Below are positions 213-18,925 of a stretch of 18,925 nucleotides of DNA, one piece after another (position 1 is the first letter of the stretch; every line of letters begins with the position of its first letter). The position numbers were made by a program, and so were the translations under genes. The stretch comes from Pseudomonadota bacterium (GTDB lineage: Bacteria > Pseudomonadota > Alphaproteobacteria > Parvibaculales > Parvibaculaceae). The notes below the pieces were generated by a model that saw only the letters and a list, made by a program, of their open reading frames with translations, had not been told where the DNA came from and ran no database searches. The DNA is taken from the NCBI GenBank assembly GCA_021780275.1, contig JAJXZC010000107.1:1-18925 (forward strand), written 5' to 3'.

Positions 213-244
213 GGATTCGCCTTTTGAGCACAAATTTCGGGGCA

Positions 245-265: not shown

Positions 266-275
266 AAAAAATGGC

Positions 276-1985: not shown

Positions 1986-2021
1986 CGGACGATCGCTGGA
2001 ATAAATGTAATCTTCGTGCTA

Positions 2022-2038: not shown

Positions 2039-2055
2039 AAGTGCGAAGGTTGCAA

Positions 2056-3817: not shown

Positions 3818-6487
3818 ATGCCGCTTCGCCTAGTTTTTTCCTGGTTCGCCGATGCCAGCGCCTGGCCAGAGCATCCCGGCATGGACTCTGCCTGCGTTGA
3901 TGCAGCGGTGGTCGGTCCCATGCGGCTGCTCGATCATGTGGAGACCATACTCGGCCTCGGCGTTCCTGCGGTTGCAGGAGTCAAGCGCATCGCTGTCTAC
4001 CGGCGCAAGCTGGAAGCCGCAGGCGAGAGGTTCTGGTCTAAGTCTTTTGAGAAGGACTCATGGGCGACCGCGCGCGAATTGTTGACCTGGCGCGACGAGT
4101 TGGTTGAAGCGGGCTGGCTCCCCGGGAAGGCTGGGCTGGTTCGGCGGATCGCCGATCTTGCCGCCGCCGAAACCAGTGGACCGCCACTGCCGGCCGGTAT
4201 TGCCGATCGTTTGAATGCGGCTGCCGCCGCGCTGGCGGACAGGCCAAAACTTCCGCTCGTTTCCATCGAACTCATCGACGCCCGCGCAGACCTGCCGGCT
4301 GGCTGGCGGCGGCTTTTGCAGGCGCTGGAATCCTGCGGGGTCGCGATCGTCGTCAGGACGGAGACTCCGATTTCGGGCGACAACGATCTTGCGCGCCTGC
4401 TGGCGCTTTTCAATGGCGAAGACCTCCGACCGGAGCTTTCTGGCGATGGCTCGGTCTGCCTGCTGACCGCCGACACAGAAATGGTCGCCGCCGAAGCGCT
4501 CGCCGGTTGGCTGGCCGCCGCTCCCGACCAAAACGACGGATTGGTTTTTGTGCTCGGTGGCGATACGACGCTGCTTGACCACACCTTGCATCGCGCCGGC
4601 CTGCCGCGCCTCGGACAATCGGCAATATCGCCCCACCGCGCCTTGTTGCAGGTGCTGCCTCTCGCCTTCGCGCTGGCGTGGGATCCTCCCGATCCCAGGA
4701 GCCTCCTGGACTTCCTGCTGCTGCCGGTCAGCCCTTTGCCGCGCTGGGCCGCAAACATGCTGGCGTCCTGCATTGCCGAAAGCCCCGGCGTCGGCGGCCC
4801 ACGCTGGCTGGAGACTTTTGGGGACATCGAAAAGCGCCTCGCGGAAAAGGAGCCGGAAGAACCTGCCGGCAAGCGCGCGAAAACCATCGAAACCTGGCGC
4901 CGTTTCATCGCGCCGGATCGCCACGATCCCAATGTCGGCATGCCGCGCGCGGCCGCCCGCGACATCGCCAATCGTGTCGGCGCCTGGGCCGCAACACGCT
5001 ATGGCGCATCGCACGACGAACTCTTCATGGCGCTTTCGACAGCCGCCAGCGACTTCGTTACCGCCATCGACGCGACGGAACTTGAAAAGCTCGACCGACT
5101 GCTGATCGAGCGCATGATCGAACAGATCGTCGGCGCTGGAGTCAACGATCCCTCGGCTTGCGCAGAAGCCGCGCCGTGGCGCGCAGTCAAACATCCTGGC
5201 GCGGTCTGGGGCGCGGCGCAAACCATCGTGTGGTGGCGTTTCGCCGACAGCGGCGAAACGTTCGCGCGCACGATCTGGGATTTTGATGAGCGCGAGGAGA
5301 TGAAAGCGGCCGGATGCCCGCTCGATGATCCCGCCCTGGCAATCCGCCGCACCGCCACTGCGTGGGAGCGGCCCATCCGCAATGCACAGCAGCGTCTGCT
5401 TCTGGTGCGGCCAACCTCGGCAGGCGGTGAGGACCTGAAGGCGCACCCACTTTGGCACTCCCTTGTCGCGGGTCGTTCAGGCGTCGAAGAACGCATCGGC
5501 GTTCGCGCGGAAAAGATCTTGCGCGAGGCGACGCCACACCTTGCTGATCGCGTGTTGTCACGGCAAAAAATTCATGCTGCCTCAGCGCCGCAGCCACGCA
5601 CGGAATGGCTCGCGCCGAAGGATGCGATCGGCGCGCGCGATTTCGAGTCGGCGAGTTCGCTGGCTTCGCTCTTGAGCTGTCCCGCCAGATGGACGCTGCA
5701 ATATGCGGCGCGGCTGCGGCGCAGCGACCGCCAGTCCTTGCCAACCGAGGACGCCCTGTTCGGCACATTGGCGCATAAGCTTGCCGAAGACCTGTTCAAG
5801 CCGGGCGCGCCGCCTGATTCCGACGACACGGTGAAGGCGGCGAAGACCCGGCTGGAAGACGTTTTGCCGCAAATGGCGGCGACCCTGTTGCTGCCCGGCG
5901 CCGCGCGCGATCTCGCCGCGGCGCGACAGACCATTCCTGAGGCCCTTGGAGAACTGGCCCGCTTCCTTCGAGCGAACGGGCTGGAGGTCGTCGAGATGGA
6001 GCAGGATTTTCACGATGCCGGCAGCCTCGATCCCGTCTCCGGGATCACTGGCGCCATCGATCTTCTCGCGCGGGATCAGGCGGGACGCGCTGTCGTCATC
6101 GATCTCAAATGGCAGAAGCGCGACAAGTACCGCCGCGCCGAAATCACCGACGGCGTCGCCATCCAGCTCGCCGTCTACGCCAGGCACGTTGACGCCGCCG
6201 CCCAGGACGTCGCCACCGGCTATTTCATGCTGCGCCAAAAACGCTTCGTCACCAACGCGACCCATTTCACGGGGTCGGTGGTCGCCGTCAACGGAGAGAG
6301 CCCGCGCGACACCTGGAGCAAGGTCAGCGGCGCCTGGCGGCAGGCGATGGACGAAATTTCCAGCGGAAAAATTCGCGCCACATTCGAAAACAACGGGATC
6401 GCGCAAGGCAAGTTCGCGGACGACATCCTGCTGACGCCACCGAAATGCGATTATTGCGATTACCAAGTTCTGTGCGCGAGGGCATGA
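3818..6487 (+). CDS. AddB-like PD-(D/E)XK nuclease subunit with 4Fe-4S cysteines
   Basis: An 889-aa protein resembling AddB of AddAB helicase-nucleases, which process double-strand DNA ends. The C-terminal nuclease domain shows H653 (LAHKL), D748 (GAIDLL), D762-L-K764 and Q783-x3-Y787, the RecB-type PD-(D/E)XK set. Four cysteines frame it: C621 (LLSCPARW) and C877-x2-C880-x5-C886 at the extreme C-terminus, the AddB/Cas4-type 4Fe-4S arrangement. No Walker A motif was found in the N-terminal 600 residues, as expected of the inactivated helicase half of AddB, though the protein is shorter than typical AddB (about 1000-1150 aa). The stop overlaps the helicase start (ATGATGA at 6484-6490), so the two are coupled. 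The start is chosen at 3818 with a weak AGG (3807-3809) in front. Likely an accessory paralogue rather than the housekeeping gene, because it is island cargo. Confidence 0.85.
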   Translation: MPLRLVFSWFADASAWPEHPGMDSACVDAAVVGPMRLLDHVETILGLGVPAVAGVKRIAVYRRKLEAAGERFWSKSFEKDSWATARELLTWRDELVEAGWLPGKAGLVRRIADLAAAETSGPPLPAGIADRLNAAAAALADRPKLPLVSIELIDARADLPAGWRRLLQALESCGVAIVVRTETPISGDNDLARLLALFNGEDLRPELSGDGSVCLLTADTEMVAAEALAGWLAAAPDQNDGLVFVLGGDTTLLDHTLHRAGLPRLGQSAISPHRALLQVLPLAFALAWDPPDPRSLLDFLLLPVSPLPRWAANMLASCIAESPGVGGPRWLETFGDIEKRLAEKEPEEPAGKRAKTIETWRRFIAPDRHDPNVGMPRAAARDIANRVGAWAATRYGASHDELFMALSTAASDFVTAIDATELEKLDRLLIERMIEQIVGAGVNDPSACAEAAPWRAVKHPGAVWGAAQTIVWWRFADSGETFARTIWDFDEREEMKAAGCPLDDPALAIRRTATAWERPIRNAQQRLLLVRPTSAGGEDLKAHPLWHSLVAGRSGVEERIGVRAEKILREATPHLADRVLSRQKIHAASAPQPRTEWLAPKDAIGARDFESASSLASLLSCPARWTLQYAARLRRSDRQSLPTEDALFGTLAHKLAEDLFKPGAPPDSDDTVKAAKTRLEDVLPQMAATLLLPGAARDLAAARQTIPEALGELARFLRANGLEVVEMEQDFHDAGSLDPVSGITGAIDLLARDQAGRAVVIDLKWQKRDKYRRAEITDGVAIQLAVYARHVDAAAQDVATGYFMLRQKRFVTNATHFTGSVVAVNGESPRDTWSKVSGAWRQAMDEISSGKIRATFENNGIAQGKFADDILLTPPKCDYCDYQVLCARA

Positions 6488-9400
6488 TGACCGAGAGCAA
6501 AACCCTTCACGGCGTAGACATCGTCACCGCCTCCGCCGGGACCGGCAAGACCTACAAACTCACCTCGATGATCGAGGCAGACGTAGTCGCCGGCCGCAAT
6601 CCCGAAAATATCCTGGCGACCACCTTCACCGTCAAGGCGGCCGAAGAGCTGCGTCAGCGCATCCGTGAACGCCTCTTGAAGAGCGGCCTTGCGCCCCAGG
6701 CCGTGCGCCTGCTCGGAGCGCGCATCGGCACCGTCAACGGCGTCTGCGGCGGCTTGATCAAGGAGTTCGCGCTCGGGCTCGGCCTCTCGCCGGTAGCGGA
6801 CGTCATCAGCGAAGACGCGCAAAAGAAAACCTTCAACAAGGCGGCGGACGAGGCGATCGCGCGCCATGCGTCCCGGCTCGACGACCTCGCGCGTCGTCTC
6901 GGGCAGTTCGAAGGAAAAGCCCAGACCGACTGGCGCAACGACGTCAACAACATCGTCGCCAAGGCGCGCGCCAACGACATGGCCCCGGAGATGTTCCGAG
7001 ATTTCGCGCGCCGCTCGATCGAGGGTATTTGCCGGATTGCGCCCAAGCCATACGGCGGCGAGACGGAAGCAAGCCTCGACGCGGCGCTGGACGCCGCCGC
7101 AGCCAATTTGCTCGCTCGCTTTCCCAACAACGACGGGCTGACCAAAGGCACGGCCGGAGCGCTCGACTACCTGCGAGAAGCCTTGCGCGGCAAGTCGGCC
7201 GCCGATCTGATCTGGTGTGACTGGGTGCGAATGGCGAAGCTTGGCGGCACGAAGGCTGACGATGCGCATTTCGAGCCGCTTCGTCAGGCTGCCGGCGTCT
7301 TCGCGCGCCATCCGCGCCTGATCGGCGATGTTAGCGCCTACATCGAGACGATTTTCGCTTGCGCCGAGGACGCCATGCTCGCCTACGAGGCGCACAAGCG
7401 CAAATGGGGCCTGATTGATTTTGTCGATCAGGAGCGGCTCGCGCTCGGGCTGTTGAAGAACCCGGAGCTTGCAGCCGCGCTCTCAGAGCGGATCGACAGT
7501 GTCTACGTCGACGAGTTCCAGGACACCAGCCCGCTGCAACTCGCGCTGTTTGTAGCGATGTCGCAAATCGCGCGAACCAGCGCCTGGGTAGGCGATCCCA
7601 AACAAGCCATCTATGGGTTTCGCGGGACCGATCCCGAACTGATCTCGCGCGTCGCGCCAAAAATCCGTGAGGCCATGGGCGGAACCGGAGACACGCTTGA
7701 TGAGAGTTTCCGCAGCCGAAAGGGCGTGGTGGATTTCGTCAACGACGCCTTTGTCGAAACCTTTGTGGCCATGGGCTTGCCGAAAAAGGCGGTGAGGGTT
7801 GAAAAGGTCCGACGCGCCGATTTGCCCGACCAAAGGGCGGCGCTCAATGTCTGGCGCGTTGAGGGCAAGACGATCGATGCGCGTGCGAATGCGCTCGCCA
7901 ATGGGATCAAGCAACGGCTCGACCAGGCGGAGGAATGGCCGGTCGAGCAAAATGGCCAGTCCCGTCCGTTGGCGCCGGGCGACATCGCCATTCTCTGCGC
8001 TACCAACGACCGCTGCGAAAAACTCGCCGGCGCCTTGTCGCAGTTCGGCCTGAAGGTGGCGCTGGAGCGAGGGGGCTTGTTCGGCGCGCCCGAGGTCCGG
8101 CTCGCGCTTGCAGCATTGCGCTGGTGCGCCGACCAGCGCGACACCCTGGCGCTGGCTGAGATCGCCAACCTGCTGCACGTCGGCGACTGCCAACCCGAAT
8201 GGTTTGAGGCCGCGCTGGAAGACGACGCCAAGGAGAGCCTCGCCGCGCTCGTGCCCATGGCTGAGGAATTGCGCTTGATCGCCAAAGGCGGCGCGCACAA
8301 GAGCCCGCAGGAGTTCGCCGACGCGGTGCTAGTCGCCGGCGGCATCGCCGACGCCATCCGCCGCTGGGGCAATGCGCCGGATCGCCTGCTCAACCTCGAC
8401 GCCCTGCGCGCGCTCGTGGGGACTTACGAAGAGGAACGCAAGCAGTCGCGCGCCCCCGCGACTGTCACAGACCTCTGCGCCTGGCTGGCCGAACAGGATG
8501 GCAAGCAGCCGGCGAGTCAGGCGACCGATGCGATCATCATCGCAACCTATCACCGCTCCAAAGGCCTGGAATGGCCGCTGGTGATCCTGACCGATCTCGA
8601 CCGCGAGCCCAAGGCCGACGCCTTCGGCCTGCATGTGATGAGCGACCTGGCGCCTGATGACATCGACTGGCGCGATCCGCTCGCCGATCGCTGGCTGCGG
8701 CTGTGGCCGTGGCCGTTCGGACCGCAGGAGAAGGATGTCGTTCTTGACGCCACCGCGCAAAACGCGCCGGAGGGGCAGGAGGCCGTCCGGATCGAGCTTG
8801 AGGAGCGCGCCCGCGTCCTCTACGTCGGCGCGACCCGCGCCCGCGACTATCTCGTGCTTGCGCTGCCGGTGAAAACAGGCTGGGCATGGCCTGATGAACT
8901 GAAGGGAGCGGACGGCGGCCTTGCGATTCTCGCACCGCCATCGGACGCGACCACGATGCGCGTCAACGGAGTCGAGCACGAGGTCTGCGTCGCAACCGTG
9001 GCGCCTGCCGAGCCGACCCGTGTTGATGACGCTTCAGAGGATTACGTCAGCGCACTGGCGCCTGCGCCCGTCTTCCCGCCGCTCGCCGTGCGGCCCAGCG
9101 GCGCCGAAAGGGTCGAAGGCACGGTCATCGCAGAACAGGTCAGCTTGGGCGGACGCTTGCCCTTCGCCGGAACGCCCGCCATGGACAAGGTCGGCGAGGC
9201 GCTGCACCGCTTCCTCGCCGCTGACGATCTCGCGTTTGCGCCGGAAAAGCGTATCGCGCTGGCAAAATGTCTGTTGGACGCCTGGGGCGTCACCGGCCTC
9301 GACCCGCGCGACGTCGTCATCATGGGGGATCGCTTCCGCATCTTCATCAACACGCGTTGGCCGAAAGGCGTCCTGCGCCGCGAGGCTCCGATCACGCGCC

Positions 9401-9666
9401 GGATCGACCGCCGGACGTTGTCGGGCCGCATCGACGCTGTGGTGGAGACGGAGGATGAGATCGTCGTCATAGACCACAAGAGTTTTCCGGGCGGCGCCAG
9501 CCAATGGCAGGCGCAGGCGGAGAAATACCTAGGTCAGCTGCAACTCTATGGCGAGGCTTTGCAGGCGGCGGCTGAGGCGCCGAAGCGCGTGCGCATGGCC
9601 TTGCACCTGCCGATCTCTGGCGAAGTGCTGATCATCGAACAGGAGACTGCGCCTGCGGTCACGTAA
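6484..9666 (+). CDS. AddA-like UvrD/Rep-family helicase with RecB-type nuclease domain
   Basis: A 1060-aa superfamily 1 helicase fused to a nuclease. Motifs in order: Walker A ASAGTGKT (16-23), Ia ATTFTVKAAEELRQRI (about 46-61), II DEFQDTSP (343-350), III WVGDPKQAIYGFRG (368-381), IV DESFRS (from 406), V YHRSKGLEWPLV (about 688-699), VI VLYVGATRAR (778-787). The C-terminal PD-(D/E)XK domain has GEALHRF (H908), SGRID (D984), D997-H-K999 and QLQLY (about 1018-1022), so nuclease activity is expected. With the upstream AddB-like protein it should form a motor that unwinds and degrades duplex ends. Start: ATG at 6484 overlaps the upstream TGA; ATG at 6487 is the alternative, with GAGGG (6478-6482) better placed for it. 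An in-frame GTG/ATG further upstream at 6445 lies inside the preceding gene and is rejected. Confidence 0.93.
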   Translation: MMTESKTLHGVDIVTASAGTGKTYKLTSMIEADVVAGRNPENILATTFTVKAAEELRQRIRERLLKSGLAPQAVRLLGARIGTVNGVCGGLIKEFALGLGLSPVADVISEDAQKKTFNKAADEAIARHASRLDDLARRLGQFEGKAQTDWRNDVNNIVAKARANDMAPEMFRDFARRSIEGICRIAPKPYGGETEASLDAALDAAAANLLARFPNNDGLTKGTAGALDYLREALRGKSAADLIWCDWVRMAKLGGTKADDAHFEPLRQAAGVFARHPRLIGDVSAYIETIFACAEDAMLAYEAHKRKWGLIDFVDQERLALGLLKNPELAAALSERIDSVYVDEFQDTSPLQLALFVAMSQIARTSAWVGDPKQAIYGFRGTDPELISRVAPKIREAMGGTGDTLDESFRSRKGVVDFVNDAFVETFVAMGLPKKAVRVEKVRRADLPDQRAALNVWRVEGKTIDARANALANGIKQRLDQAEEWPVEQNGQSRPLAPGDIAILCATNDRCEKLAGALSQFGLKVALERGGLFGAPEVRLALAALRWCADQRDTLALAEIANLLHVGDCQPEWFEAALEDDAKESLAALVPMAEELRLIAKGGAHKSPQEFADAVLVAGGIADAIRRWGNAPDRLLNLDALRALVGTYEEERKQSRAPATVTDLCAWLAEQDGKQPASQATDAIIIATYHRSKGLEWPLVILTDLDREPKADAFGLHVMSDLAPDDIDWRDPLADRWLRLWPWPFGPQEKDVVLDATAQNAPEGQEAVRIELEERARVLYVGATRARDYLVLALPVKTGWAWPDELKGADGGLAILAPPSDATTMRVNGVEHEVCVATVAPAEPTRVDDASEDYVSALAPAPVFPPLAVRPSGAERVEGTVIAEQVSLGGRLPFAGTPAMDKVGEALHRFLAADDLAFAPEKRIALAKCLLDAWGVTGLDPRDVVIMGDRFRIFINTRWPKGVLRREAPITRRIDRRTLSGRIDAVVETEDEIVVIDHKSFPGGASQWQAQAEKYLGQLQLYGEALQAAAEAPKRVRMALHLPISGEVLIIEQETAPAVT

Positions 9667-9686
9667 CAGGAGCGAACCTGCGCGGC

Positions 9687-9708
9687 GGCGCGCCAGGAGG
9701 ATCGCGCC
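9687..9708. terminator. Hairpin between convergent genes, possible terminator
   Basis: GGCGCG (9687-9692) and CGCGCC (9703-9708) can pair with a 10-base loop, in the 56-base gap between the helicase stop and the oppositely facing nuclease stop. No T-tract follows on either strand, so intrinsic termination is uncertain. Confidence 0.25.
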
Positions 9709-9722
9709 TTGACCATGCGCGC

Positions 9723-10958
9723 TCAGGCAGGCGTCACGCAGAGCGCTTTGAGGCGCGGTCTGACCGCGGATACAAAACGGTCTGCGGCCGCCTTGATCCA
9801 GGCCAATTCTTCTTCGTCGCCCCCAAGGTCCGCGCGCATCACATAGACCTGAACCAGCGCGAGGAACGGCTCTTCGCGCTTGAGATCGAACCTTATGTTC
9901 AGTCCGCTCTCTGCTCGCATGGCGACGCTTTCGGCCTCCAGTTGCGAAAATACCAACCGTCCCTGTTCGCCGGTCAAGCGAAGGAACAGGCCTATCTCGC
10001 CGCCGGCGAGCCGATAGGCGGTGATCCACGGCGCAACGCCCGGCATAGCCAAACGGGCGCTGTTGTTTCCTCCGTGGCGCGGCGCAGGCTGATCCGCGTG
10101 CTCGAACCGCGCCTCGTCTATGAAACGCTGCCAGAAGGCCCGGTTGTCCGCCATTCTTACTGGGTCTCTTGGCGAGGTTGCGCCGCCTTGGTCTCCCGCT
10201 TCCTCGTCCATGTTTGTCAATGGCTCCGGGGCGACGACGACCGGTTGGCCGGTCTCGGAGAGCAGCACCCGATGGGTCACCACTTCTGTCCGCAAGGCCG
10301 CGCGGGGGAGCACCACGGTTCGGCCCGCGCCGTCGCTCCATAACAATATTTCCACCAGCCCCAACCGGGCAAGACCGGCATGGCTGCCCGCCATGTGTTC
10401 AACCAGCGCTACAAGATCCGAGCGTATTCCATCTCCGACGATGAGCAGGTGAAAATCGCCGCTAGCCAATGAGCGTGTCACGCCATCAACGAAGCGGGCT
10501 TCGCTCAGATCAGGCCACATAGCACGGGCGCGCTCGTAAAGCGGGTGGATGCCCGACCAGCGCTCCTTCTGCTTCAACCGCTCGGTGAGATCGGTGTAGC
10601 TCCACCGGCGCAGCAATGCGGCGTATTCAGTAATTTGCGCGACGACCTCGCGACGGGCCTGCGGGTTCCGCCACAGCTTACATTCGATGATGACCAGCCG
10701 TCCCGAACGCGTCACGCCCAAAAGGTCGGGGAAGACCGAGCCACCCGCGCGGGGCAGAGGCAGTTCGCGGCAGAGCGGCAAGATCGCCCCGGCGTCTGGG
10801 TCTATTTCGTCGAGGGGCAATAGTTCAGGGTGCCTAAACAACAGATCTTGCAGCCACTTCTCGTCGCGACTGTCGTCGCCTCCGGCACGCAGAGTGCGGC
10901 GGTGAAGGGCGGTGGCGATTGAGGCGTCGGAAGCGTCTTCGAGGAGCAGTGCGGTCAT
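9723..10958 (-). CDS. PD-(D/E)XK nuclease-fold protein with DUF4268-like C-terminal region
   Basis: A 411-aa protein. Residues about 30-115 form a PD-(D/E)XK core: E33 in RDEKWLQDLL, P77-D78 in VFPDLL, the E92-C-K94 signature in LVIIECKLW, and Q108-x3-Y112 (QITEY). This layout is seen in uncharacterised endonuclease-like proteins often located near helicases and restriction genes. The C-terminal third (about 273-365; FWQRFIDEARF, IGLFLRLTG, VFSQLEAE) resembles DUF4268, a domain often fused to such nucleases; that assignment is from memory of the pattern. Residues 245-272 look like a flexible linker. The gene converges on the helicase gene and lies 254 bases after the OGG-fold gene, so it may form the end of the minus-strand operon or be separately transcribed. 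No strong ribosome binding site precedes the ATG. Substrate and role unknown; defence-associated nuclease is a guess. Confidence 0.75.
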   Translation of the reverse strand: MTALLLEDASDASIATALHRRTLRAGGDDSRDEKWLQDLLFRHPELLPLDEIDPDAGAILPLCRELPLPRAGGSVFPDLLGVTRSGRLVIIECKLWRNPQARREVVAQITEYAALLRRWSYTDLTERLKQKERWSGIHPLYERARAMWPDLSEARFVDGVTRSLASGDFHLLIVGDGIRSDLVALVEHMAGSHAGLARLGLVEILLWSDGAGRTVVLPRAALRTEVVTHRVLLSETGQPVVVAPEPLTNMDEEAGDQGGATSPRDPVRMADNRAFWQRFIDEARFEHADQPAPRHGGNNSARLAMPGVAPWITAYRLAGGEIGLFLRLTGEQGRLVFSQLEAESVAMRAESGLNIRFDLKREEPFLALVQVYVMRADLGGDEEELAWIKAAADRFVSAVRPRLKALCVTPA

Positions 10959-11212
10959 GATGAGGCGATCAACCAGATTCTCTGTTTATATCTGCGCGAT
11001 AACTCGGCTGGAATATTCCGCCGGTCAATCGGAAAGCGGATGCGGCTTTCCAAATGGATCAAATCATGTCTGTGCTCCGATAATGTGTGTCGCCTTCGAC
11101 AGAAACGCGATGTCAGGCGCCCCCTCCCGAATTGTGGGCGCCGCTTTCGCGTCAGGTTCAGGTGATAAAAATTCTCGGACAACTTCGATCGTGCGGCTCT
11201 GACAAGCTGCGC
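10959..11212. other. Intergenic region between OGG-fold and PD-(D/E)XK genes
   Basis: About 254 bases, more AT-rich than the nuclease gene next to it. I see no convincing coding frame, terminator or RNA structure. It could carry a promoter for the minus-strand nuclease gene, but no clear hexamer pair stands out. Confidence 0.4.
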
Positions 11213-12331
11213 TCAAGTCAACTGCTTGATGAGATTTCTCCACCTGCCGCGGCCGCGCCCTTCTGAAAACATGCGAAGCTCGACCAACTCAGCTGTCGTA
11301 TTCATCTTTTTGGCGATGTATTCTAGGAAAGCGCAGAACTGTTCATAGGTCGCGCCAGTGTTCAGGTCGGAGACTGCGTAAGCGTTCTCACCGGCGTCAT
11401 TCAAATCGACAAGGTTTTTCCCGGACAGAAAATTTGCTGAACGCGCAGTCCACTGATCCATAATCAAGCCAGGACGCCCCGAGCGGGCGCTTAGAAAATA
11501 GAGCAGCTTGGTGAAGTATGCAGGACCCATTCCCGGCAATTTTCTTTGGCGTCGGAGTCCGACAAAGTGATTATATGCTTCGGCGCGATCGAACTCCCTG
11601 CATCTCAGATCGTCGGCCAATCCGAGCCAATCAGATCTGCATGCGAAAAAGCTTCGGGCGTGATCTCTGCGCATGCCGCCCCAAGCGATAATGGCGAGGC
11701 AGCAATTAAGTGTGCTCACATTTAAATTTTTGACCAAAGCGAAAACACCCGCCCGATTCAGGTTTCCTACAGGCAAGTGCAATTCGATTTCGCTAGCCAA
11801 ACCCGGATCACTGACGATTGGACGCAAATATGCTCTAACATCGCATCCAAGCCACACCTCCTCGTCATTAGAAAGTTCGACAAAAAGGTTAAACCTCTGA
11901 TCAATTGGAACTTCAGTTTCACTAGCTACTATTGTAGCGTCGCTTTCTGTTGTTGCAGCTGCACCCGGCGCGGCGCGCCCCTTTAGCTGGACTGCCCTTA
12001 CCATCCGCCTAGTCGCCGGGTTTTCCACTTCAGTAATCGCGAAAAACTTCTTATTGATTTCGAAAAACTCGTTCGATGCCTGCATGACATTCATGTATGC
12101 CCTGGGCACAATCAAACGGCAAAGTGCATCAAACCCCCGGTCACAATTCTGTTCAATGAGATCGTCGAAGCTGCATTTTCGATTCAGAATTGGCAACACC
12201 TCTTCGAGTTCAAGTCTATGCGCCGGTCGCCCTGGGCCGACCCAACCTTTCCAGTGGTGTTCAAAATCGTCGAGAGAAGCTTCGAATCCGTTGGCGTGAG
12301 GGAATTTAACATTTTGTACTTCGGTCGACAT
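11213..12331 (-). CDS. 8-oxoguanine DNA glycosylase-like OGG-fold protein
   Basis: A 372-aa protein of the OGG-fold group. A helix-hairpin-helix LPGMGPAYFTKLLYF (about 265-279) is followed by LIMDQWTARS, whose D292 occupies the place of the catalytic Asp of HhH-GPD glycosylases, and AIIAWGGMR (about 214-221) lies before it. In human OGG1 the Schiff-base Lys comes right after the hairpin; at that point here is Ala, with K275 four residues later, so classical bifunctional lyase activity is doubtful. The N-terminal 200 residues are unlike OGG1 and unassigned. ATG at 12331 is chosen over GTG at 12337 because AAGGGG (12342-12337) lies 5 bases before it. The gene is visibly more AT-rich than its neighbours, suggesting separate acquisition. 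Members of this group lie in defence-type neighbourhoods; recognition of modified bases is inference. Confidence 0.72.
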   Translation of the reverse strand: MSTEVQNVKFPHANGFEASLDDFEHHWKGWVGPGRPAHRLELEEVLPILNRKCSFDDLIEQNCDRGFDALCRLIVPRAYMNVMQASNEFFEINKKFFAITEVENPATRRMVRAVQLKGRAAPGAAATTESDATIVASETEVPIDQRFNLFVELSNDEEVWLGCDVRAYLRPIVSDPGLASEIELHLPVGNLNRAGVFALVKNLNVSTLNCCLAIIAWGGMRRDHARSFFACRSDWLGLADDLRCREFDRAEAYNHFVGLRRQRKLPGMGPAYFTKLLYFLSARSGRPGLIMDQWTARSANFLSGKNLVDLNDAGENAYAVSDLNTGATYEQFCAFLEYIAKKMNTTAELVELRMFSEGRGRGRWRNLIKQLT

Positions 12332-12349
12332 TAACACCCCTTGTGCAAT

Positions 12350-12377
12350 TCTATAATTTAACCTTTATCTGCCGCAA
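12350..12377 (-). promoter_or_regulatory. Possible promoter of the OGG-fold gene
   Basis: Reading on the minus strand, TTGCGG (12377-12372) and TATAGA (12355-12350) are 16 bases apart in an AT-rich patch just before the gene. Transcription would start about at 12343, only a few bases before the ribosome binding site, so the leader would be very short. Weak support. Confidence 0.3.
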
Positions 12378-12560
12378 ACGTTTCCGAAGGCCGGTTGACG
12401 TGGAAGAGTATAGGCATTCTACGGTACGCGCATCTGGGACGATGTCTCCGCGTTCGCCGAGCCGCCAACGCGCAAGAACCTGAGGCGAACACTGGTTCTA
12501 TGACGCGCATCGACCTTCAAAGTACGACCGATCGTCAGACCGGAAATTTGCGGCTTTGGC

Positions 12561-13487
12561 TCAATCTTTTTCGGTGAATGCGAAATGATCGCTTCGCAAC
12601 TCGCTCTCGCCGTCCCAACGATAAGCAACCAGTGGTCCGCCCTTGCCGGCGCTGTAATCGACGCAGGCAAATCGACTACCCGCCCGAGTTGGCGTCCCAG
12701 TGAGCCAATAGTGGCCAAAGAAGACGGGAGGGCCGACATACGGCGACAGCCGAGGGTCATGTGGCAATGGAATATCGGGCATATTCGCCAGCACGCTTTC
12801 CGGCGCTAACGTCGAATTTCGCAGCGAGGAGAAATCGGGCGCCCACCATTTGACGCGCGCCGAGCGGCGCACGTGTCCGTCCTTGTCGTGAAAACTTGCC
12901 CCTTCGGGCAGGTCGATTTCCAAGCCCTTGCACAAAGCCTCTACAGCTTCAAAGACCCAATGGCCGTCGCGGCTGGCCAAAACGATCATCTCGTCAGTCA
13001 GTGTGTTGTTGGGGCCGAGGGCTGGCCTTAACTGCTCGATATACGCGTCATTCCAGCAGGCGTGAACGACGCGGATGTCTCCGAGATCCAGCCACAGCGG
13101 CAACATCTTGAACCAGGCGATAATTTCGTTGTGCAGCGGCTGGCCTTCGACCTCCGATAAAAAGGCCTCGTGCTGCGCCCGATTGCCCGCGCGTCCTCTC
13201 CGCCGCAAGTGTTCGCCAGGCGAGTCCGGGTCGGGCGTCGCCCAGGCGATGGCGTTGAATTCGTGATTGCCGAGGATGGAGCGCGCCGAGCCCGCGTCGA
13301 CCATCCTTCGCACGAGATCGACCGTCGCGACCTGGTTGGGGCCGCGATCGATGAGGTCGCCGACGAAAATCGCCGATCGCTCTGGATGGCGCCAGGCGCC
13401 GTTCGTTTCACGATAGCCAAGCTTTTTGAGCAGGCTGATGAGCTTATCTGCCTGCCCGTGGACATCGCCAATGATATCGTAGCCCAT
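12561..13487 (-). CDS. PPP-type metallophosphoesterase (PrpE/ApaH-like)
   Basis: A 308-aa calcineurin-like phosphoesterase. The metal-site motifs are all present: GDVHG (7-11), GDLIDRG (43-49), GNHE (73-76), then VVHACW and VFFGHYWLTG with the later metal-binding His residues. These enzymes remove phosphate from proteins, dinucleoside polyphosphates or RNA 5' ends; the sequence does not tell which. The length is a little above PrpE (about 245 aa), with an insert of about 20 residues after GNHE that is rich in Arg. The preceding nuclease gene ends at 13493. ATG at 13487 starts the conserved strand (MGYDIIGDVHG); an in-frame TTG at 13496 would make a TTGA overlap with the upstream stop and add three residues. 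It is the last gene of a compact operon with the PD-(D/E)XK and MBL genes. Confidence 0.88.
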   Translation of the reverse strand: MGYDIIGDVHGQADKLISLLKKLGYRETNGAWRHPERSAIFVGDLIDRGPNQVATVDLVRRMVDAGSARSILGNHEFNAIAWATPDPDSPGEHLRRRGRAGNRAQHEAFLSEVEGQPLHNEIIAWFKMLPLWLDLGDIRVVHACWNDAYIEQLRPALGPNNTLTDEMIVLASRDGHWVFEAVEALCKGLEIDLPEGASFHDKDGHVRRSARVKWWAPDFSSLRNSTLAPESVLANMPDIPLPHDPRLSPYVGPPVFFGHYWLTGTPTRAGSRFACVDYSAGKGGPLVAYRWDGESELRSDHFAFTEKD

Positions 13488-13492
13488 GCCGA

Positions 13493-14881
13493 TCAAGCGC
13501 TTGCCCGCGCCAATTTATCGGCTCGGCGCATCATTGCCGTCAAGAAACCGGCGTCGGCGGCTTCCGATAAAGTTCCTTCGGAAAACCGATCGCCGCGCAC
13601 AAAGGTCGTGAGCAGTTTGGCAATCTGTTCGCCGGAAGCCTCCTTCAGGTTCTGAGGCGATGAGCGATAGAACAGCCCCTCGTCGCTCGTCATCCAGTCC
13701 GACCAGTTGAAACCGGCGAGCACCCAGCCAGAATCGTAAGCGAAATGCACGAATCGCTCAGCGTCGACCGTGAGCAATTCCTCGCCCAAGGTGATGACGC
13801 CATCATCAGCCTTCGACGATTCTTCGAATTTCGAAAAGACGAAATCCGGGGACGAAAATGTATCTTCGAACGCCGCCAACGCAGCGCATTGAGCTGACGT
13901 AAACTGCCAGATAGGAAGGGTGATCTGGCCGGCGCTGTCTTTCACGAGGAGTTCTATGCCTGTGCTCGTCAGTTTGTCGCGATGACGCCGCCAATAATGA
14001 TCCGCATCGATGTTCTCGCGAGTTCCATTGTCGAAAATAACCAGACGAGGTTTTTCGTCGATTTTCAGATCGCCTAGCCGTGCGGCGTCCACGAGCGGGT
14101 GAAGCGGCCCACGTTCCCCGCGCATGGACCAGAACTCCTTCAAGAGTTCGCAGGTCTCGCGATAGGCTCTGATAATAGCGACCTGCCAAGCGCTGTTCGC
14201 GAGGTATTTGCCGTAAGTTTTCAACTGACCGACCACCTCGGCGTCGGCGTCGCCATCAATGCGAAGTCTCGGATCATCGAAAGTCTTCGCTTCCCAAAAC
14301 ACGATGCGAATTTCTTTGCCGTGCCTTTCCAGCGCTACGAGGTCCATGCGAGGCGCGCCGACGCTACCAGGGATGGCAGCATCAAGTGGAAGCGCCATTT
14401 CCAGATCAATGACAGCGGCATTCGATCCCACGATTGTGTCGACGCCAACCTTTTCCATGCCTTTCCGCTCGGAGCCACCATCGCGAACGCCCTTCATTCG
14501 CGCGTCAATGTTCTCCTTGATCGCGCCAAACGAAGTCAGCGCACCGCCGTCGCTCCAATTCCAGCCGTCGGCGCCCTGCATCAACTTGACGTAGCTATCG
14601 CCGGCGCTTTCGCCCCGAAGGTATTTCACGTGGGTTTTCACGTAGGCAGGTGCGCATTCGCCCTTCTTGCATCTTCCAAAGCCGACATGCGCAACCACAT
14701 TGCCCTGCCGGTAAAAGTCGAGCGTATTTTCCCGAACCGCCAGTCGCAGACCGTCGCCGCGTCCCGAAGGCGTCCAAAGCCTTAAGAGCTCCTTCCACCA
14801 GTTTTCTTCAGTGGCTTCCGCCATTGCGCGCAGCGTCGAAAGCGCCTCGGAGCGGAGACCTCTTCGAAATATCTTTTGCAT
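13493..14881 (-). CDS. PD-(D/E)XK nuclease-fold protein with DUF6508-like C-terminus
   Basis: A 462-aa protein without a named family that I can vouch for. Its centre carries a PD-(D/E)XK signature: E161 (VIDLEMAL), D180 in PRMDLVAL, E197-A-K199 in IVFWEAK, and Q219-x3-Y223 (QLKTYGKY), suggesting a metal-dependent nuclease. The C-terminal 90 residues (WVLAGFNWSDW; AKLLTTFVRGDRFSEG; GFLTAMMRR) match the pattern of DUF6508, a domain of unknown role. The N-terminal 130 residues are unassigned and contain two Cys in GRCKKGEC (69-76). ATG at 14881 has an excellent GGGAGG (14893-14888) 6 bases upstream and begins 2 bases after the MBL stop; a longer frame from 14956 would run into the MBL gene and is rejected. 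Strong coupling to the MBL and phosphoesterase genes indicates a joint function. Confidence 0.78.
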   Translation of the reverse strand: MQKIFRRGLRSEALSTLRAMAEATEENWWKELLRLWTPSGRGDGLRLAVRENTLDFYRQGNVVAHVGFGRCKKGECAPAYVKTHVKYLRGESAGDSYVKLMQGADGWNWSDGGALTSFGAIKENIDARMKGVRDGGSERKGMEKVGVDTIVGSNAAVIDLEMALPLDAAIPGSVGAPRMDLVALERHGKEIRIVFWEAKTFDDPRLRIDGDADAEVVGQLKTYGKYLANSAWQVAIIRAYRETCELLKEFWSMRGERGPLHPLVDAARLGDLKIDEKPRLVIFDNGTRENIDADHYWRRHRDKLTSTGIELLVKDSAGQITLPIWQFTSAQCAALAAFEDTFSSPDFVFSKFEESSKADDGVITLGEELLTVDAERFVHFAYDSGWVLAGFNWSDWMTSDEGLFYRSSPQNLKEASGEQIAKLLTTFVRGDRFSEGTLSEAADAGFLTAMMRRADKLARASA

Positions 14882-14882
14882 T

Positions 14883-16148
14883 TCAAACCTCCCACCACTC
14901 GCCGTCCTTGCGGCGAACGACATTTGCGAAAAACTCGGCGAAGCGGTCGCCGTCAAACGTATGGATCGGAACCAGCCTCTTGGGAGAAACCGCTTCCGAC
15001 AGGCGCTTCAAGTCAGCGATGTCCGCGTGCCCGGACGTGTGAATCCGCTCCAGCGGCACCCCTCGCGCCTTGAGTTCGCTGACGAGCTTCGAGCCCGCTC
15101 CTTCTTTGAGATAGCCTTCCCATTGCGACCATATTGCCCTGGCGCCATTCCACAGTTGCGCTTCGTCAACATCCGCCAGCATGGCTGGGCGAAACAGCAT
15201 GACGGCCCTGTCGCGCATGTCTGCAATGGCAGCGCGATAGATTCTTGCAGGCTTGTAAATCGGCAGCAGGTCGAACATTTCGTTACGGGCGATTTGCCGG
15301 CGCTGATACTCGGGAATGTAAACCGCGAGATTGGGCCAGCCGACTTGCGGCAAATGTTCGTTCTGCGTGGCGCGCAAAATCTCCATGGCGTAAGCGTCGA
15401 GGATCAGCGTTCGCCCCGTTCGCTTGCAGGCCCGGTAAAGGCTGACGATCCGGTCGATATTCTGGGCGGACGCCGAGACCGCCACAAAGCCCGGCGCCGA
15501 AAACGCCGCAATGAAACGCTGTTCGATCTCCACTTCCGTCGGAAACCGCGTCTCTAGCGTGAGCCGGCCGAGGCTCGATCCCTCCATCAGCATGGAGTCG
15601 ATCGCCTTGGGCGGTTGGCGCACCATGGCCTCAAACAGCTTGGCCTTCCGCCCGTGTCCGCGAATATCGCCGGAATAGAACAGCCGCTTGTCACCCGCTT
15701 CGATCGTCAACGCATAAGCGTCATAGGCTGAATGATCGACCAGGAGAGGCGTGACGCTGAATGGGCCGATCTGGATCGTCCGGCGGTCGGCCAATTCAAT
15801 CGTGTTCTCCGGCGCGTAGCCCTGCGGCAGAAACGGCGCGGCAGCCCGAAGAATGCGTTGCGTGGCGGCGCCCATCGCTACGGGGATCTGCCTTTCGACC
15901 AGCGGCGTCAAACCCCAGTGATCGACGTGGCCGTGCGAGATGACGATCGCCAGCAGGCCTTTGTCGGGCGACGCGCCGAGGCCTTCGATCTTCGGCAGAA
16001 GATCCGGGCTTGTTTCATCAGCGTCGAGCGGTTTGCCGAGATCGAGCAGAATACGCGCGCCGTCATAGGCCAGCTCGACACACGTGCCTCCAATCTGGTC
16101 TGCGCCGCGATGAATGCGTGCTCGAAATGAGTCAGAACAGGAAATCAC
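14883..16148 (-). CDS. MBL-fold/beta-CASP metallo-hydrolase, RNase J-like
   Basis: A 421-aa metallo-beta-lactamase-fold protein of the beta-CASP group, predicted to cut RNA or DNA. Metal ligands visible: H72-x-H74-x-D76-H77 in SHGHVDHWG, H139 in LLVDHSAYD, D161 in FYSGDIRGHG, and the late H396 in LVPIHTFDG. Beta-CASP motifs include E189 (LMEGSS), the SAQNIDRI segment with LILDAY (D251), and IHTSGHA (H370, H374), all as in RNase J. It lacks the C-terminal domain of RNase J (about 555 aa) and so contains only the catalytic lobes. The start is GTG at 16148, preceded by AAGGA (16160-16156) at 7 bases. It leads the three-gene unit with the PD-(D/E)XK and phosphoesterase genes. A DNA-repair exonuclease role (Pso2/SNM1-like) or RNA processing are both open; the RNase J-like end of the range fits better. 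Confidence 0.88.
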   Translation of the reverse strand: MISCSDSFRARIHRGADQIGGTCVELAYDGARILLDLGKPLDADETSPDLLPKIEGLGASPDKGLLAIVISHGHVDHWGLTPLVERQIPVAMGAATQRILRAAAPFLPQGYAPENTIELADRRTIQIGPFSVTPLLVDHSAYDAYALTIEAGDKRLFYSGDIRGHGRKAKLFEAMVRQPPKAIDSMLMEGSSLGRLTLETRFPTEVEIEQRFIAAFSAPGFVAVSASAQNIDRIVSLYRACKRTGRTLILDAYAMEILRATQNEHLPQVGWPNLAVYIPEYQRRQIARNEMFDLLPIYKPARIYRAAIADMRDRAVMLFRPAMLADVDEAQLWNGARAIWSQWEGYLKEGAGSKLVSELKARGVPLERIHTSGHADIADLKRLSEAVSPKRLVPIHTFDGDRFAEFFANVVRRKDGEWWEV

Positions 16149-16165
16149 GCTGACGTCCTTGTTTG

Positions 16166-16190
16166 TCGAGCGTCCATCGGGAACGCTCGA
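16166..16190. repeat. Perfect 8-bp inverted repeat (hairpin) in the MBL leader
   Basis: TCGAGCGT (16166-16173) and ACGCTCGA (16183-16190) are exact inverted copies with a 9-base loop. On the minus strand the hairpin ends 5 bases before the AAGGA ribosome binding site of the MBL gene. It lacks a T-tract, so it is not a classical terminator; a processing site, translation-control hairpin or protein-binding site is possible. Confidence 0.55.
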
Positions 16191-16225
16191 ATTGCAACTT
16201 CAAATTGTTTTCTCGTGATTATTCT

Positions 16226-16819
16226 TCAGTATGACTGCGCCAGAATCGGTCGCAGACGACGGCGCCAGGAACGCGGCGCGCTCTGGCAGGCGTGGAAATG
16301 GCAAGCGAGGATGCCCAAGATTGGCCAGAGCGCCCGCGCAACATCGCAAAAGCAGCCGAGGAGAGTCGGCGACAGATCGAACAACCATCGTGCCTCTTGC
16401 GCCGCGATCACGATCAGGAAAAGCGATTGTGCGCGATGAAACGGATGCTCGCGCATGCTGTTACCGAGGGGCGTCGATCCGCATTCCGCCTTGTCGGCGA
16501 GGCGACCGCATTCGACGACCCAGCGGTCGACGAATATTTTCGCGAGGAAACAAAAGGCGAGAAAAAGCCCGTCCTTGATGAGGCGGGGAGCAAAGACCCA
16601 CGGGTTGGCGCCGAGCTGAACCAACCCTGCGATGAAAACGATACGGCGGCTCGCACCGATCAATGCCGAGCCTGCCATGAAAAAAATGCAGGCGCGATAG
16701 AGAAATGCAGCCAGACGATAGGCGGACAGGCTGGTCGCCCGCTCAAATTCGCTGGCGATCGGTTGCAATAAGGCGACCAGCCGGTCGGACGCCGCGACCA
16801 ACGCATCAAGTGGATTCAA
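16226..16819 (-). CDS. Small membrane protein of unknown function, coupled to ADP-ribosylglycohydrolase
   Basis: A 197-aa protein I do not recognise. It has hydrophobic segments at about 34-55 (AAFLYRACIFFMAGSALIG), 58-75, 82-96 (DGLFLAFCFLAKIFV) and two near the C-terminus (about 130-142 and 160-178), so it is probably a polytopic inner-membrane protein with a basic tail (APRSWRRRLRP). The start is TTG at 16819, whose TTGA overlaps the TGA of the upstream hydrolase; GAGGG (16830-16826) lies 6 bases ahead, which decides this start. An opposing plus-strand frame (16292-16771) is likely a shadow. Tight coupling suggests that the two proteins act together, for example by holding the hydrolase at the membrane, but this is inference. 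Confidence 0.6.
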   Translation of the reverse strand: MNPLDALVAASDRLVALLQPIASEFERATSLSAYRLAAFLYRACIFFMAGSALIGASRRIVFIAGLVQLGANPWVFAPRLIKDGLFLAFCFLAKIFVDRWVVECGRLADKAECGSTPLGNSMREHPFHRAQSLFLIVIAAQEARWLFDLSPTLLGCFCDVARALWPILGILACHFHACQSAPRSWRRRLRPILAQSY

Positions 16820-17772
16820 TTGCGGCCCTCGCTACGGCGGACGCTGGCGCCAGCGCAGAGCAGTGAAATCGCGCGCTGCTCGATTTCTTCTCGCCACGCC
16901 AGGACATCGAGCCAACGCGCGGGAATGCCGCTCTGACCATAGAGCGCTCCGGCCAACTGACCAGTCACGGCGCCAACCGTATCGGAATCGTCTCCTAGGT
17001 TGACCGCCAGCACCAATGCATCGGCAAAATTGCTCGTGCGCGCGACACACCAAAGCGCCGCCTCCAGCGTATGGACCACATAACCACTCGAAGAAATGGC
17101 TTCACGCGGTTTGTGACGCCAGGTTCCGGCCGCCACCTCTTCGAGATCCGCATGCGCCGCAGAACGGGTTCGCAGAACTTCGTGTTTTCCATGACCGACC
17201 ATCGCCTCGACGAGCATCGCGGCGAACAGGCCGCAGGCTTCCGCAGCCACCCTATTGGCGTGGGTCGTGAGGCTCTGGCGTTCGGCAAGGCGAGTGGCGG
17301 CGCCCATGTCAGGCGCCGCGAAAATGGCGACGGGAGCCAGGCGCATGAGCGAGCCGTTTCCCGCCAGGTATCTGTCGTCCGGCCCAACTCCGATTGGCTG
17401 GCCGTGCCTCACATAGTGGGACAGCGCTTGCGACGTCGTTCCGCCAATATCGAAGCAACGGCCGTTGACGCTGTTCTCGCCCTGACGCCACCAACGGACA
17501 AAGCGATCGAGGAGGTCGCGCTCTTCCAAGCCGGAATTGGCGAGCAACGAATCCGCGAGACAGAGCGCCATGCTGGTGTCGTCGGTCCATTCGCCCGGTT
17601 TGAGGCGAAACGGGCCGCCGCCAACAATGTCGATCACGGGAGAATGGGCGTCGCGGCGAGAAAACTCCAACGTCGTCCCCAGCGCGTCGCCGACGGCAAG
17701 GCCAACCAATGCGCCAATGGCGCGGTCTTCGATGCCGGCATCAGCCACATTCGATGCATGACAATCTGACAC
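16816..17772 (-). CDS. ADP-ribosylglycohydrolase (DraG/ARH family)
   Basis: A 318-aa protein with the full ARH signature: GLAVGDALG near the N-terminus, WTDDTSM (62-68) with the paired metal-binding Asp, GNGSLMRLAP (about 138-147), and GDDSDTVGAVTGQLAGA (260-276) supplying the remaining Mg ligands. The family removes ADP-ribose from proteins or nucleic acids using two Mg ions. No ADP-ribosyltransferase gene was recognised in the window. Start choice: GTG at 17772 is favoured by GGAG (17785-17782) 9 bases before it; TTG at 17793 gives seven more residues but lacks a ribosome binding site. Next to it upstream is the 68-aa repeat protein (42 bases between); downstream is the TTGA-coupled membrane protein. 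Target unknown; DraG control of nitrogenase is one known role but no nif genes are visible. Confidence 0.88.
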   Translation of the reverse strand: MSDCHASNVADAGIEDRAIGALVGLAVGDALGTTLEFSRRDAHSPVIDIVGGGPFRLKPGEWTDDTSMALCLADSLLANSGLEERDLLDRFVRWWRQGENSVNGRCFDIGGTTSQALSHYVRHGQPIGVGPDDRYLAGNGSLMRLAPVAIFAAPDMGAATRLAERQSLTTHANRVAAEACGLFAAMLVEAMVGHGKHEVLRTRSAAHADLEEVAAGTWRHKPREAISSSGYVVHTLEAALWCVARTSNFADALVLAVNLGDDSDTVGAVTGQLAGALYGQSGIPARWLDVLAWREEIEQRAISLLCAGASVRRSEGRN

Positions 17773-17813
17773 GTTCAGACGCTCCAATTTCAAGGGATTT
17801 TCAACGCGTACGG

Positions 17814-18020
17814 TCAGCGCGCAGGTGTCGACGAAATCTGCCGCCCGTGTTGGTCATAGCTGTAGATGAACGATCCCCGGCGAACGTTCACGGTCGACGA
17901 GGTGTACCCGGTCAATCCATCCTTCGGGCCGCTGCCCGCGCCGACGGAAGCGATCTGCCGCCCCTTCTCATCGTAAATGTAGACAAACGAACCGCGCTGT
18001 ACCGCATTGCCAATGGCCAT
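17814..18020 (-). CDS. Small two-repeat protein (RGSFxYxYDxxGRQI repeats)
   Basis: A 68-aa protein built from two copies of one motif: RGSFVYIYDEKGRQIAS (9-25) and RGSFIYSYDQHGRQISS (48-64), 39 residues apart, joined by a Gly/Ser-rich linker. ATG at 18020 is chosen because AGAGGAA lies 7 bases upstream; the same frame stays open to 18278, but that part has no coding character. Such short proteins with tyrosine-rich beta-hairpin-like repeats are known in many alphaproteobacteria as hypothetical proteins; the role is unknown to me. It stands at the head of the minus-strand gene row, 42 bases before the ADP-ribosylglycohydrolase, so co-transcription is likely. Confidence 0.72.
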   Translation of the reverse strand: MAIGNAVQRGSFVYIYDEKGRQIASVGAGSGPKDGLTGYTSSTVNVRRGSFIYSYDQHGRQISSTPAR

Positions 18021-18223
18021 GATGAAATTCCTCTGCAAATCTTGCGGCTCTCGTTCGCTTTTGACCGGGGATGCCGCGTCGTACTCAACAAAATCGAGAT
18101 TGCGCCATCGGCCCGACAATTTCGGACGTAGCTTCTTACGGCGAGAAAAATATTCGGATAGAAGTACTGCAAATGATCCACGACCGTCATTGACGCATTG
18201 CGACCTGAAATTCGGGGCAATCC
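18021..18223. other. Divergent intergenic region
   Basis: About 200 bases, lower in GC than the genes on both sides, between the minus-strand 68-aa gene and the plus-strand frame that leaves the window. It must hold promoters for both directions. I see AT-rich patches (18145-18160) but no hexamer pair that I would defend. Confidence 0.35.
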
Positions 18224-18925
18224 ATGTTTCGAGATCACCACATGAATTTCGTTTGCGACACCAGACAAGCTCCAACATCCGACGCCCATGCCGGCATCCT
18301 GGCCATCAGGACATTTGGCGGAGCTTGCCCTGAATGGGCGCAAAGCTTTCAACCACTTACCGAGGCGCCGACCGCTGAAATAATCATTGTGCGCGACGCG
18401 CCCAACGAGTTCGCTGCGGCATTGTCCTTATCAGACACGCCGGAGACCGCGCCACCGCTGCGCATAGTCGTCGTCGACGAAGCACTGCCCGCCGGGGACT
18501 TCAAGTGCCCGGACGCCATTTGGATTGTAAGCGCGCCAGCAGGTGATCTCGATGCGATTGCCGAAGCGAACATGAGATTTGTCCGCGGGCCGATATTTAT
18601 TGGTCTTGCATTGGCCGACGTCATGGAACTCGCAGGAACGCGCGAAAATGCTGTGCCGCGCGGTCGCGGCGCTGTCGTATTGGGAATGTATGGTGATGAA
18701 GCGCTGCTAGAAGTGAGGCGGGCGTTGCAAGCCTTCGCCGAAGCCGGGTTTGAGAACGTTGCGCTGATTCACGCCATCGCCACAGGCGACGATGCAGAAA
18801 TCGACCTTTACAAGATGGACAAATTCGCCTCCGAGCTTCTCGGCGATGCCCCCGAAAGGGAAACCGGGAATTTCCAGGACCAAGGAAACGCTCTGCGGAA
18901 TAAAGCGGCGCAAGGCGATCAGCGC
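18224..18925 (+). CDS. Unknown protein, 3'-truncated by the window edge
   Basis: An open frame of 234 codons with no stop up to the last base. Starts: ATG at 18224 (GGGG at 18214-18217) or in-frame ATG at 18242 (GAGA at 18231-18234); an in-frame TGA at 18206 limits it upstream. Visible segments: ILAIRTFGGACPEW near the N-terminus, LRIVVVDE, DAIWIVSAPAGD, GPIFIGLALADVMEL and, in the last part, GRGAVVLGMYGDEALLEV followed by ENVALIHAIATGDD and EIDLYKMDKF. These alternating beta-strand and helix patterns suggest a cytoplasmic alpha/beta protein. The last part faintly recalls the C-terminal domain of FtsZ/tubulin-like proteins, but no tubulin GGGTGTG loop is visible, so I do not assign it. Codon use looks like coding DNA. 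Confidence 0.65.
   Translation, partial: MFRDHHMNFVCDTRQAPTSDAHAGILAIRTFGGACPEWAQSFQPLTEAPTAEIIIVRDAPNEFAAALSLSDTPETAPPLRIVVVDEALPAGDFKCPDAIWIVSAPAGDLDAIAEANMRFVRGPIFIGLALADVMELAGTRENAVPRGRGAVVLGMYGDEALLEVRRALQAFAEAGFENVALIHAIATGDDAEIDLYKMDKFASELLGDAPERETGNFQDQGNALRNKAAQGDQR

Follow-up and report, generated by a model that had tools for sequence, protein, structure and literature searches.

A candidate mobile pair of beta-CASP and PD-(D/E)XK-type nucleases with exchangeable accessory genes in a Parvibaculaceae contig

Enzymes of the beta-CASP and PD-(D/E)XK types are nucleases. The closest described relatives of the locus reported here are RNase J, the repair operon that joins LigB, an Lhr helicase, the phosphodiesterase PdeM and a protein of the metallo-beta-lactamase (MBL) fold (PMC10140301), the trypsin-MBL pairs of Hachiman, AVAST, Lamassu and DRT (PMC12799240), the validated E. 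coli anti-phage systems DS-8 and DS-9, which need metallophosphatases and in one case include a HAD phosphatase as well (PMC13092281), and type VII CRISPR-Cas with its beta-CASP protein Cas14. All papers given by PubMed Central number are cited from excerpts. We analyzed contig JAJXZC010000107.1 of the Parvibaculaceae assembly GCA_021780275.1 over its positions 1 to 18,925 (18,925 nucleotides, hereafter the window), in which a first-pass annotation had proposed three adjacent genes for an MBL/beta-CASP nuclease, a PD-(D/E)XK-type protein and a metallophosphoesterase as a new system. The best reading of our results is that the first two genes belong to an undescribed mobile module, probably with an anti-invader role, which is inferred. 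The trio and its parts are as follows.

14883 to 16148, minus strand: MBL, core gene 1, a short RNase J-like beta-CASP metallo-hydrolase of 421 residues
13493 to 14881 (listed open reading frame, ORF, 13493 to 14956), minus strand: MID, core gene 2, an N-terminal PD-(D/E)XK-type domain and a C-terminal DUF6508, 462 residues
13505 to 13900, minus strand: the DUF6508 part of MID (Pfam PF20118, E-value 6.8e-29)
12561 to 13496, with an ATG at 13487, minus strand: a PPP-type metallophosphoesterase, most similar to PrpE/ApaH and the phosphatase portion of bacterial Pnkp

The three same-strand ORFs named at first pass are all present. MID most likely starts at ATG 14881, which leaves 1 base between the MBL stop and MID, and another copy (P0001) has the same length of 462 residues. 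The ATG of the phosphatase lies 5 bases past the MID stop, and its listed TTG start overlaps that stop. Both reported spacings therefore stand, as does the ribosome binding site before MID (GGGAGG); the strong site also reported before the phosphatase was not seen.

The conserved unit is MBL plus MID. We surveyed 46 MBL places, comprising the window, one hit on a genome contig (L002), 9 plasmid records and 35 genome stretches, 4 of them from the two genomes to which L001 and L002 led and 31 from others. The survey omitted a relative at 24% identity (L010), a duplicate R. phaseoli record, L044, which repeats L002, the short stretches L057 and L064-L066, and distant plasmid hits, those of RNase J type among them. 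The counts are not independent, since L070-L077 include several near-copies. In 36 of the 46 places, MBL had a MID-family gene on its own strand, at most 100 nucleotides away in 34; MBL preceded MID in 27 places and followed it in 8. The 36th place (L040) is a single frame of MBL and the N-terminal part of MID, ending before the D/ExK part near the end of its contig; because it read more weakly, as a partial frame, the only clean MBL-MID fusion was lost from the evidence. Alignment of the locus copies to the MID set showed E, D, E and K retained in 33 of 35 copies besides the window, a recount that supports the confidence given to the readings below. The trio order, in which a same-strand phosphatase gene immediately follows MID, was found in just 2 of 46 places, the window and its close relative L029. 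On this count the trio was rejected as the conserved unit, and the first-pass proposal of a three-gene system is only partly supported.

The pairing also held in the reciprocal direction. Among 297 genomes of one order, MBL was found in 5 (E limit 1e-45) and MID in those 5 and one more (profile E limit 1e-8), and the two genes were adjacent in 5 of 5. In the sixth genome (G255), MID is split in two, and the surrounding 18 kb gave no match to the MBL profile. This result takes the MBL-MID pairing beyond chance. On plasmids, all 7 records matching the nuclease part of MID were also MBL records, two of them being the same R. phaseoli locus.

Ten of the surveyed places had no MID, and another D...E-x-K protein adjoined MBL in 7 of these. 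The MID-less places divide as follows.

L034, L041 and L082: ALTN, a protein with D...ELK
L084, L085 and L088: ALT2, a protein of a second such family
L013: a protein of a third family
L043: a broken MBL
L009 and L011: no such protein found

ALTN, ALT2 and the L013 protein are putative nucleases, called from their motif. When we compared the partners with hhalign at the D...ELK region, ALTN reached a probability of 42 with ALT2 and 49 with the L013 protein, and MID stayed below 1 in all three comparisons. With ALTN aligning weakly to the other two and MID to none, we rejected one superfamily for all partner nucleases. On the MBL tree, from which L071, L072, L074, L075, L083, L043 and L013 (match below 300 residues) were also left out, the five partner labels, outgroup included, required 6 changes versus 11.8 in shuffles, and ALTN fell at two places. 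One Bradyrhizobium genome (G002) holds four MBL places (L002, L041, L042 and L043) with differing partners, one of them broken.

MBL combines Lactamase_B_2 (PF12706) and RMMBL (PF07521) domains. We aligned 165 sequences, consisting of the window, the best 119 other hits of 4938, and 45 from the loci. Residues H72, H74, D76, H77 and H139 were invariant, and D161, E189, H374 and H396 were 98-99% conserved. Under the usual naming of the beta-CASP motifs, this is HxHxDH followed by H, D, E, H and H, and the complete metal motifs recorded at first pass are thus conserved at 98-100%. MBL scored 43.9 bits with the NCBIfam model for RNase J, whose cut-off is 400, and RNase J itself was rejected on this score. 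In the PDB, the uncharacterised protein EF2904 ranked first, followed by RNase J. MBL retains an HTSGHA segment, which we take to be the 5'-phosphate pocket of RNase J.

The catalytic residues of MID are likewise intact. Residues E161, R178, D180, E197, K199 and Q219 were invariant in 73 aligned sequences, these being the window and 72 of 79 hits (P0001, P0057, P0063 and P0071-P0074 omitted). PD-(D/E)XK enzymes are marked by the series E ... D ... E-x-K ... Q, and we assigned MID to this type because its conserved residues follow that order. The D180/E197/K199 signature proposed from the window alone thus picked the right residues. The PD-(D/E)XK-type part spans approximately residues 1-330, and most listed relatives of MID are about 300-360 residues long and have no DUF6508. 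Where the window's MID carries DUF6508, the L002 MID ends in an unrelated domain, which we call GIFW. A Mesorhizobium protein annotated to the GIY-YIG nuclease family (L107, 4188-5441) also ends in DUF6508. Two further arrangements were observed: L012 has a HEPN gene and then DUF6508, and in P0073 (775 residues) a MID-like part is fused with PF20796 and PF22558 domains, a second kind of MID fusion. No literature on DUF6508 was found among the open-licence papers searched.

The third gene matches Metallophos (PF00149) at 3.1e-11 and encodes GDVHG, GDLIDRG, GNH, HACW and GHYW, the full PPP/calcineurin motif set that had been described for it. It matched 4j6o in the PDB (1e-11), and PrpE/ApaH models matched below their cut-offs. 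TIGR04075 of NCBIfam gave 71.4 bits against a cut-off of 750 and covered only profile positions 182-264 of 851; the protein has neither the kinase and ligase parts nor the full score of bacterial Pnkp. Around the plasmid relatives of this phosphatase, no MBL match lay within 40 kb among the 30 listed of 49 places.

Phosphatases of differing folds (PPP, calcineurin-like, and HAD by motif) were found in 13 of the 46 MBL places, requiring at least 6 changes on the MBL tree. Absence of an accessory gene here means that it was not revealed by small profiles or annotation, and a single sequence underlies the calcineurin profile. Two cases stand outside the count: in L007, a PP2C gene that runs divergently to MID, and in L033, ADPRH and PPP genes separated from MBL by over 8 kb. 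The phosphatase genes counted are as follows.

Window and L029: PPP gene on the same strand after MID
L002: PPP piece of 102 residues, 87 nucleotides after MID
L041, L042, L043 and L082: PrpE-like PPP gene, divergent, upstream of MBL
L008 and L009: calcineurin-like gene after MBL
L035-L038: gene for a 130-residue DxDGT protein after MID

The 130-residue protein is putatively HAD-type as read from its motif, and no family or PDB match was found for it. Other genes also recurred within 4.5 kb of MBL, namely GIFW in 15 of 46 places, a WYL regulator in 12, an AAA protein in 8 (tandem AAA in both copies scanned, L032 and L037), ADPRH in 5 and SMALL in 5. Accessory genes are thus swapped around the pair.

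These likenesses bear on the possibility of an RNA-decay or RNA-end system, wherein the ApaH/PrpE-like phosphatase would make 5'-monophosphate RNA, MBL would degrade it and MID would give entry cuts, on host or invader RNA and perhaps abortively. We regard this as unlikely, because PD-(D/E)XK enzymes are mostly DNA cutters and no phosphatase was detected in 33 of the 46 places. It draws on the standing of RNase J as the nearest NCBIfam family of MBL and the next PDB match after EF2904, and on the below-cut-off matches of the phosphatase. Furthermore, ApaH decaps Np4-RNA, and an NAD cap shields RNA from RNase J1 (PMC9283932).

The trio composition was described correctly at first pass, but the cassette is larger than the trio. 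Its extent and the features upstream of MBL are as follows.

12595 to 18130, minus strand: cassette in common with L029, by blastn
16816 to 17793, minus strand: ADPRH, an ADP-ribosylglycohydrolase (PF03747, 1.6e-74) with TDDT and GDDSDT motifs
17814 to 18020, minus strand: SMALL, 68 residues, with two YD-repeat-like stretches
16226 to 16819, minus strand: ORF of 197 residues inside a window-only stretch, no family match

The window and L029 share blastn blocks at 12595-16238 (82% identity) and 16812-18130 (79%), and we therefore delimit the cassette as SMALL-ADPRH-MBL-MID-PPP. The 573 bases between these blocks (16239-16811) occur in the window and not in L029. Blastn gave no further L029 match outside the cassette, the L029 contig stopping 520 bases past the PPP gene. 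ADPRH lies upstream of MBL in L029 and L002 too. SMALL matched RHS_repeat below cut-off (18.7 versus 22 bits) and has 366 homologues. Its occurrences close to MBL are in Alphaproteobacteria, in Prevotella and in Thermus thermophilus, where one plasmid carries SMALL directly before the MBL gene and two further records have SMALL close to an MBL match by position; in T. brockianus the gene at the corresponding place has no MBL-profile match. SMALL also occurs on plasmids with no MBL nearby, such as small Komagataeibacter and Psychrobacter plasmids.

The module is patchily spread. Across six genome samples, which overlap and include the centre genome, MBL was present in 5 of 297, 9 of 398, 18 of 296, 5 of 78, 3 of 195 and 1 of 200 genomes (E limit 1e-45 for the first three and 1e-40 for the rest), and it was also found on plasmids. 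A phage-borne gene was rejected as an explanation, the phage collection yielding 4 matches only, at approximately 24% identity. Among viral contigs, 3 stretches fit a pattern and 0 encode a relative, in a single-protein scan that reaches close relatives only. In L084 (5404-8659) and L085 (10419-13637), MBL and ALT2 stand beside genes read as terminase-like and ParB/DNA-methylase-like, which suggests carriage by a prophage-like element. Separately, the omitted L010 (OL539428.1) is an E. coli plasmid record in which an annotated block with the distant MBL gene resembles a Gram-positive chromosome (LiaFSR, KtrC); the block is possibly a misassembly.

We compared the six proteins around each of 17 MBL places with those around 17 other positions on these contigs (102 versus 102 proteins), excluding the module's own families and using a simple ORF caller that also returns false ORFs. 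The families listed were the first 25 of 89 and 49 for PADLOC and of 87 and 115 for Pfam, ordered by member number. Near MBL, the listed matches included Lamassu LmuA/LmuB, PDC-M16B and MkoA, as well as 3 DNA methylases, 3 integrases, 2 resolvases and 3 terminases. Those listed for the controls were transporter ATPases (hitting PADLOC mad3/mad8), UvrD and metabolic families. Because the tables are ordered by member number, integrase, resolvase, terminase and methylase families have at most one member each in the controls. Among the matches listed, the neighbourhood leans toward mobile and defence genes.

The remainder of the window holds the following features.

276 to 1985, plus strand: integrase, about 10.6 kb from the trio
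2041 to 3631, plus strand: HTH and HipA-like pair adjoining the integrase, from the Pfam scan
3818 to 9666, plus strand: AddAB-like pair (a PDDEXK_1 protein and a UvrD helicase-nuclease), a possible associate of the module
9723 to 10958, minus strand: protein of 411 residues, convergent with the AddAB-like pair, with a weak PDC-S11 match at residues 77-132
11213 to 12337, minus strand: OGG-like (PF21790) protein, the match covering the C-terminal half only

The integrase that had been invoked as marking the surroundings is thus present at that distance. The OGG-like gene lies in a stretch of low GC (about 0.50-0.52, against about 0.58-0.65 across much of the window). In L003, MBL-MID is followed by a UvrD gene that shares 28% identity with the one in the window and is preceded by an annotated PD-(D/E)XK gene; the window's PDDEXK_1 protein has no match in L003.

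Two further explanations draw on these surroundings. The first is a nucleic-acid repair cluster in which two nucleases and a phosphatase would clean damaged ends, in the manner of the LigB/Lhr operon, whose MBL-fold protein is joined with a phosphodiesterase (PMC10140301). The AddAB-like and OGG-like neighbours, the UvrD and PD-(D/E)XK genes of L003, the proximity of the window's PPP protein to the Pnkp phosphatase, and a weak match of the L009 metallophosphatase beside MBL to PdeM (14.9 versus 150 bits) all point that way. However, the annotated plasmid loci, which were the loci scanned for this, name no ligase or Lhr-type helicase beside the pair, no ligase-associated NCBIfam model is listed for MBL, and the occurrence is sparse, partly plasmid-borne and not housekeeping-like, which leaves repair improbable in our judgment. 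The second explanation is a toxin-antitoxin-like element maintaining a plasmid or island, whose nucleases would hit cells that lose it. Such an element would fit the partial plasmid location and the HipA-like pair, but it is very unlikely given that no consistent small antitoxin-like partner was found, with SMALL near MBL in only the 5 places noted above.

We weighed these alternatives against the reading that the trio represents one form of a mobile module pairing a beta-CASP with a PD-(D/E)XK-type nuclease, most likely for phage or plasmid defence, which we hold with moderate confidence. Several observations count against it. MID has no Pfam nuclease (PDDEXK) match and no PDB relative by sequence, just an unrelated hit at E 0.6. 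Four of the 36 MID-family matches are weak, at 21-32 bits (L035, L036, L040 and L086), and L040 and L086 are partial frames that do not include the E-x-K part. No adjacent nuclease was found beside MBL in L009 and L011, and the 33 places in which small profiles or annotation detected no phosphatase belong here as well. Finally, many of the neighbour matches are metabolic families, and the controls match PADLOC too, through generic models (mad3/mad8, UvrD).

If the nuclease-pair reading is correct, MID would cut invading nucleic acid, aimed or gated by its variable C-terminal domain, which is DUF6508 here. MBL may then degrade from the new ends, with DNA and RNA both possible substrates. The phosphatase would prepare or clear terminal phosphates or caps and so set the state of the ends, and ADPRH may strip ADP-ribose from the substrate or a partner. 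In other loci, WYL regulators or the AAA ATPase probably control the module; WYL proteins have been tied to the control of defence systems by Makarova and colleagues (PMC4012209). A phosphatase slot is plausible for defence because metallophosphatases are needed in two validated E. coli anti-phage systems (PMC13092281).

A more specific version, which we put forward only tentatively, is a horizontally spread and undescribed defence system built on an obligatory beta-CASP and PD-(D/E)XK pair. It would swap unrelated phosphatases (PPP, calcineurin-like, HAD) and unrelated nuclease and recognition domains (DUF6508, GIFW), and it would have reduced relatives in Prevotella and Thermus thermophilus that comprise MBL and SMALL, in which no adjoining nuclease was found. 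If true, bacterial immunity would include a new engine of two mutually dependent nucleases of unrelated folds with end-processing enzymes, and DUF6508 and the GIFW domain would gain a role. Since different folds take the phosphatase slot, it becomes possible to test whether removal of terminal or capping phosphates limits an RNase J-like nuclease on invaders.

The statement at first pass that no named defence system has this composition agrees with our searches: PADLOC 2023 gave 0 families for each trio protein at E 0.1, NCBIfam gave no trio match at cut-off, and no paper naming the composition was found among the listed matches, which covered open-licence papers and, for preprints, those in PubMed Central. 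RNase J is among the best family and PDB hits of MBL and shares its metallo-beta-lactamase and beta-CASP motifs, but its models and most of its solved chains have 546-561 residues, compared with 421 for MBL. MBL also differs from RNase J in its patchy occurrence and its PD-(D/E)XK-type partner; no such neighbour lies within 3 kb of an RNase J annotated on an Azospirillum plasmid. Type VII CRISPR-Cas offers weak likeness, with Cas14 scores of 15.5 and 33.2 bits for the N-terminal part of MBL where the cut-off is 800, and no cas family reached its cut-off among the scanned window proteins. The LigB/Lhr/PdeM/MBL operon likewise places an MBL-fold protein beside a phosphoesterase (PMC10140301), but the pair here has a PD-(D/E)XK-type partner and an MBL outside the ligase-associated NCBIfam models. 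The trypsin-MBL pairs resemble our locus in placing an MBL-fold nuclease within defence loci, although theirs is ComEC-type and protease-activated (PMC12799240), whereas the 10 Pfam-scanned window proteins include no protease domain. DS-8 and DS-9 use a metallophosphatase and a HAD phosphatase, two kinds also seen here; the excerpt of that paper mentions no MBL or PD-(D/E)XK partner (PMC13092281), and the DS-9 model scores the L009 metallophosphatase at 9.5 bits against 420. Set beside these systems, the undescribed mobile nuclease-pair module has a fair chance of being a separate one.

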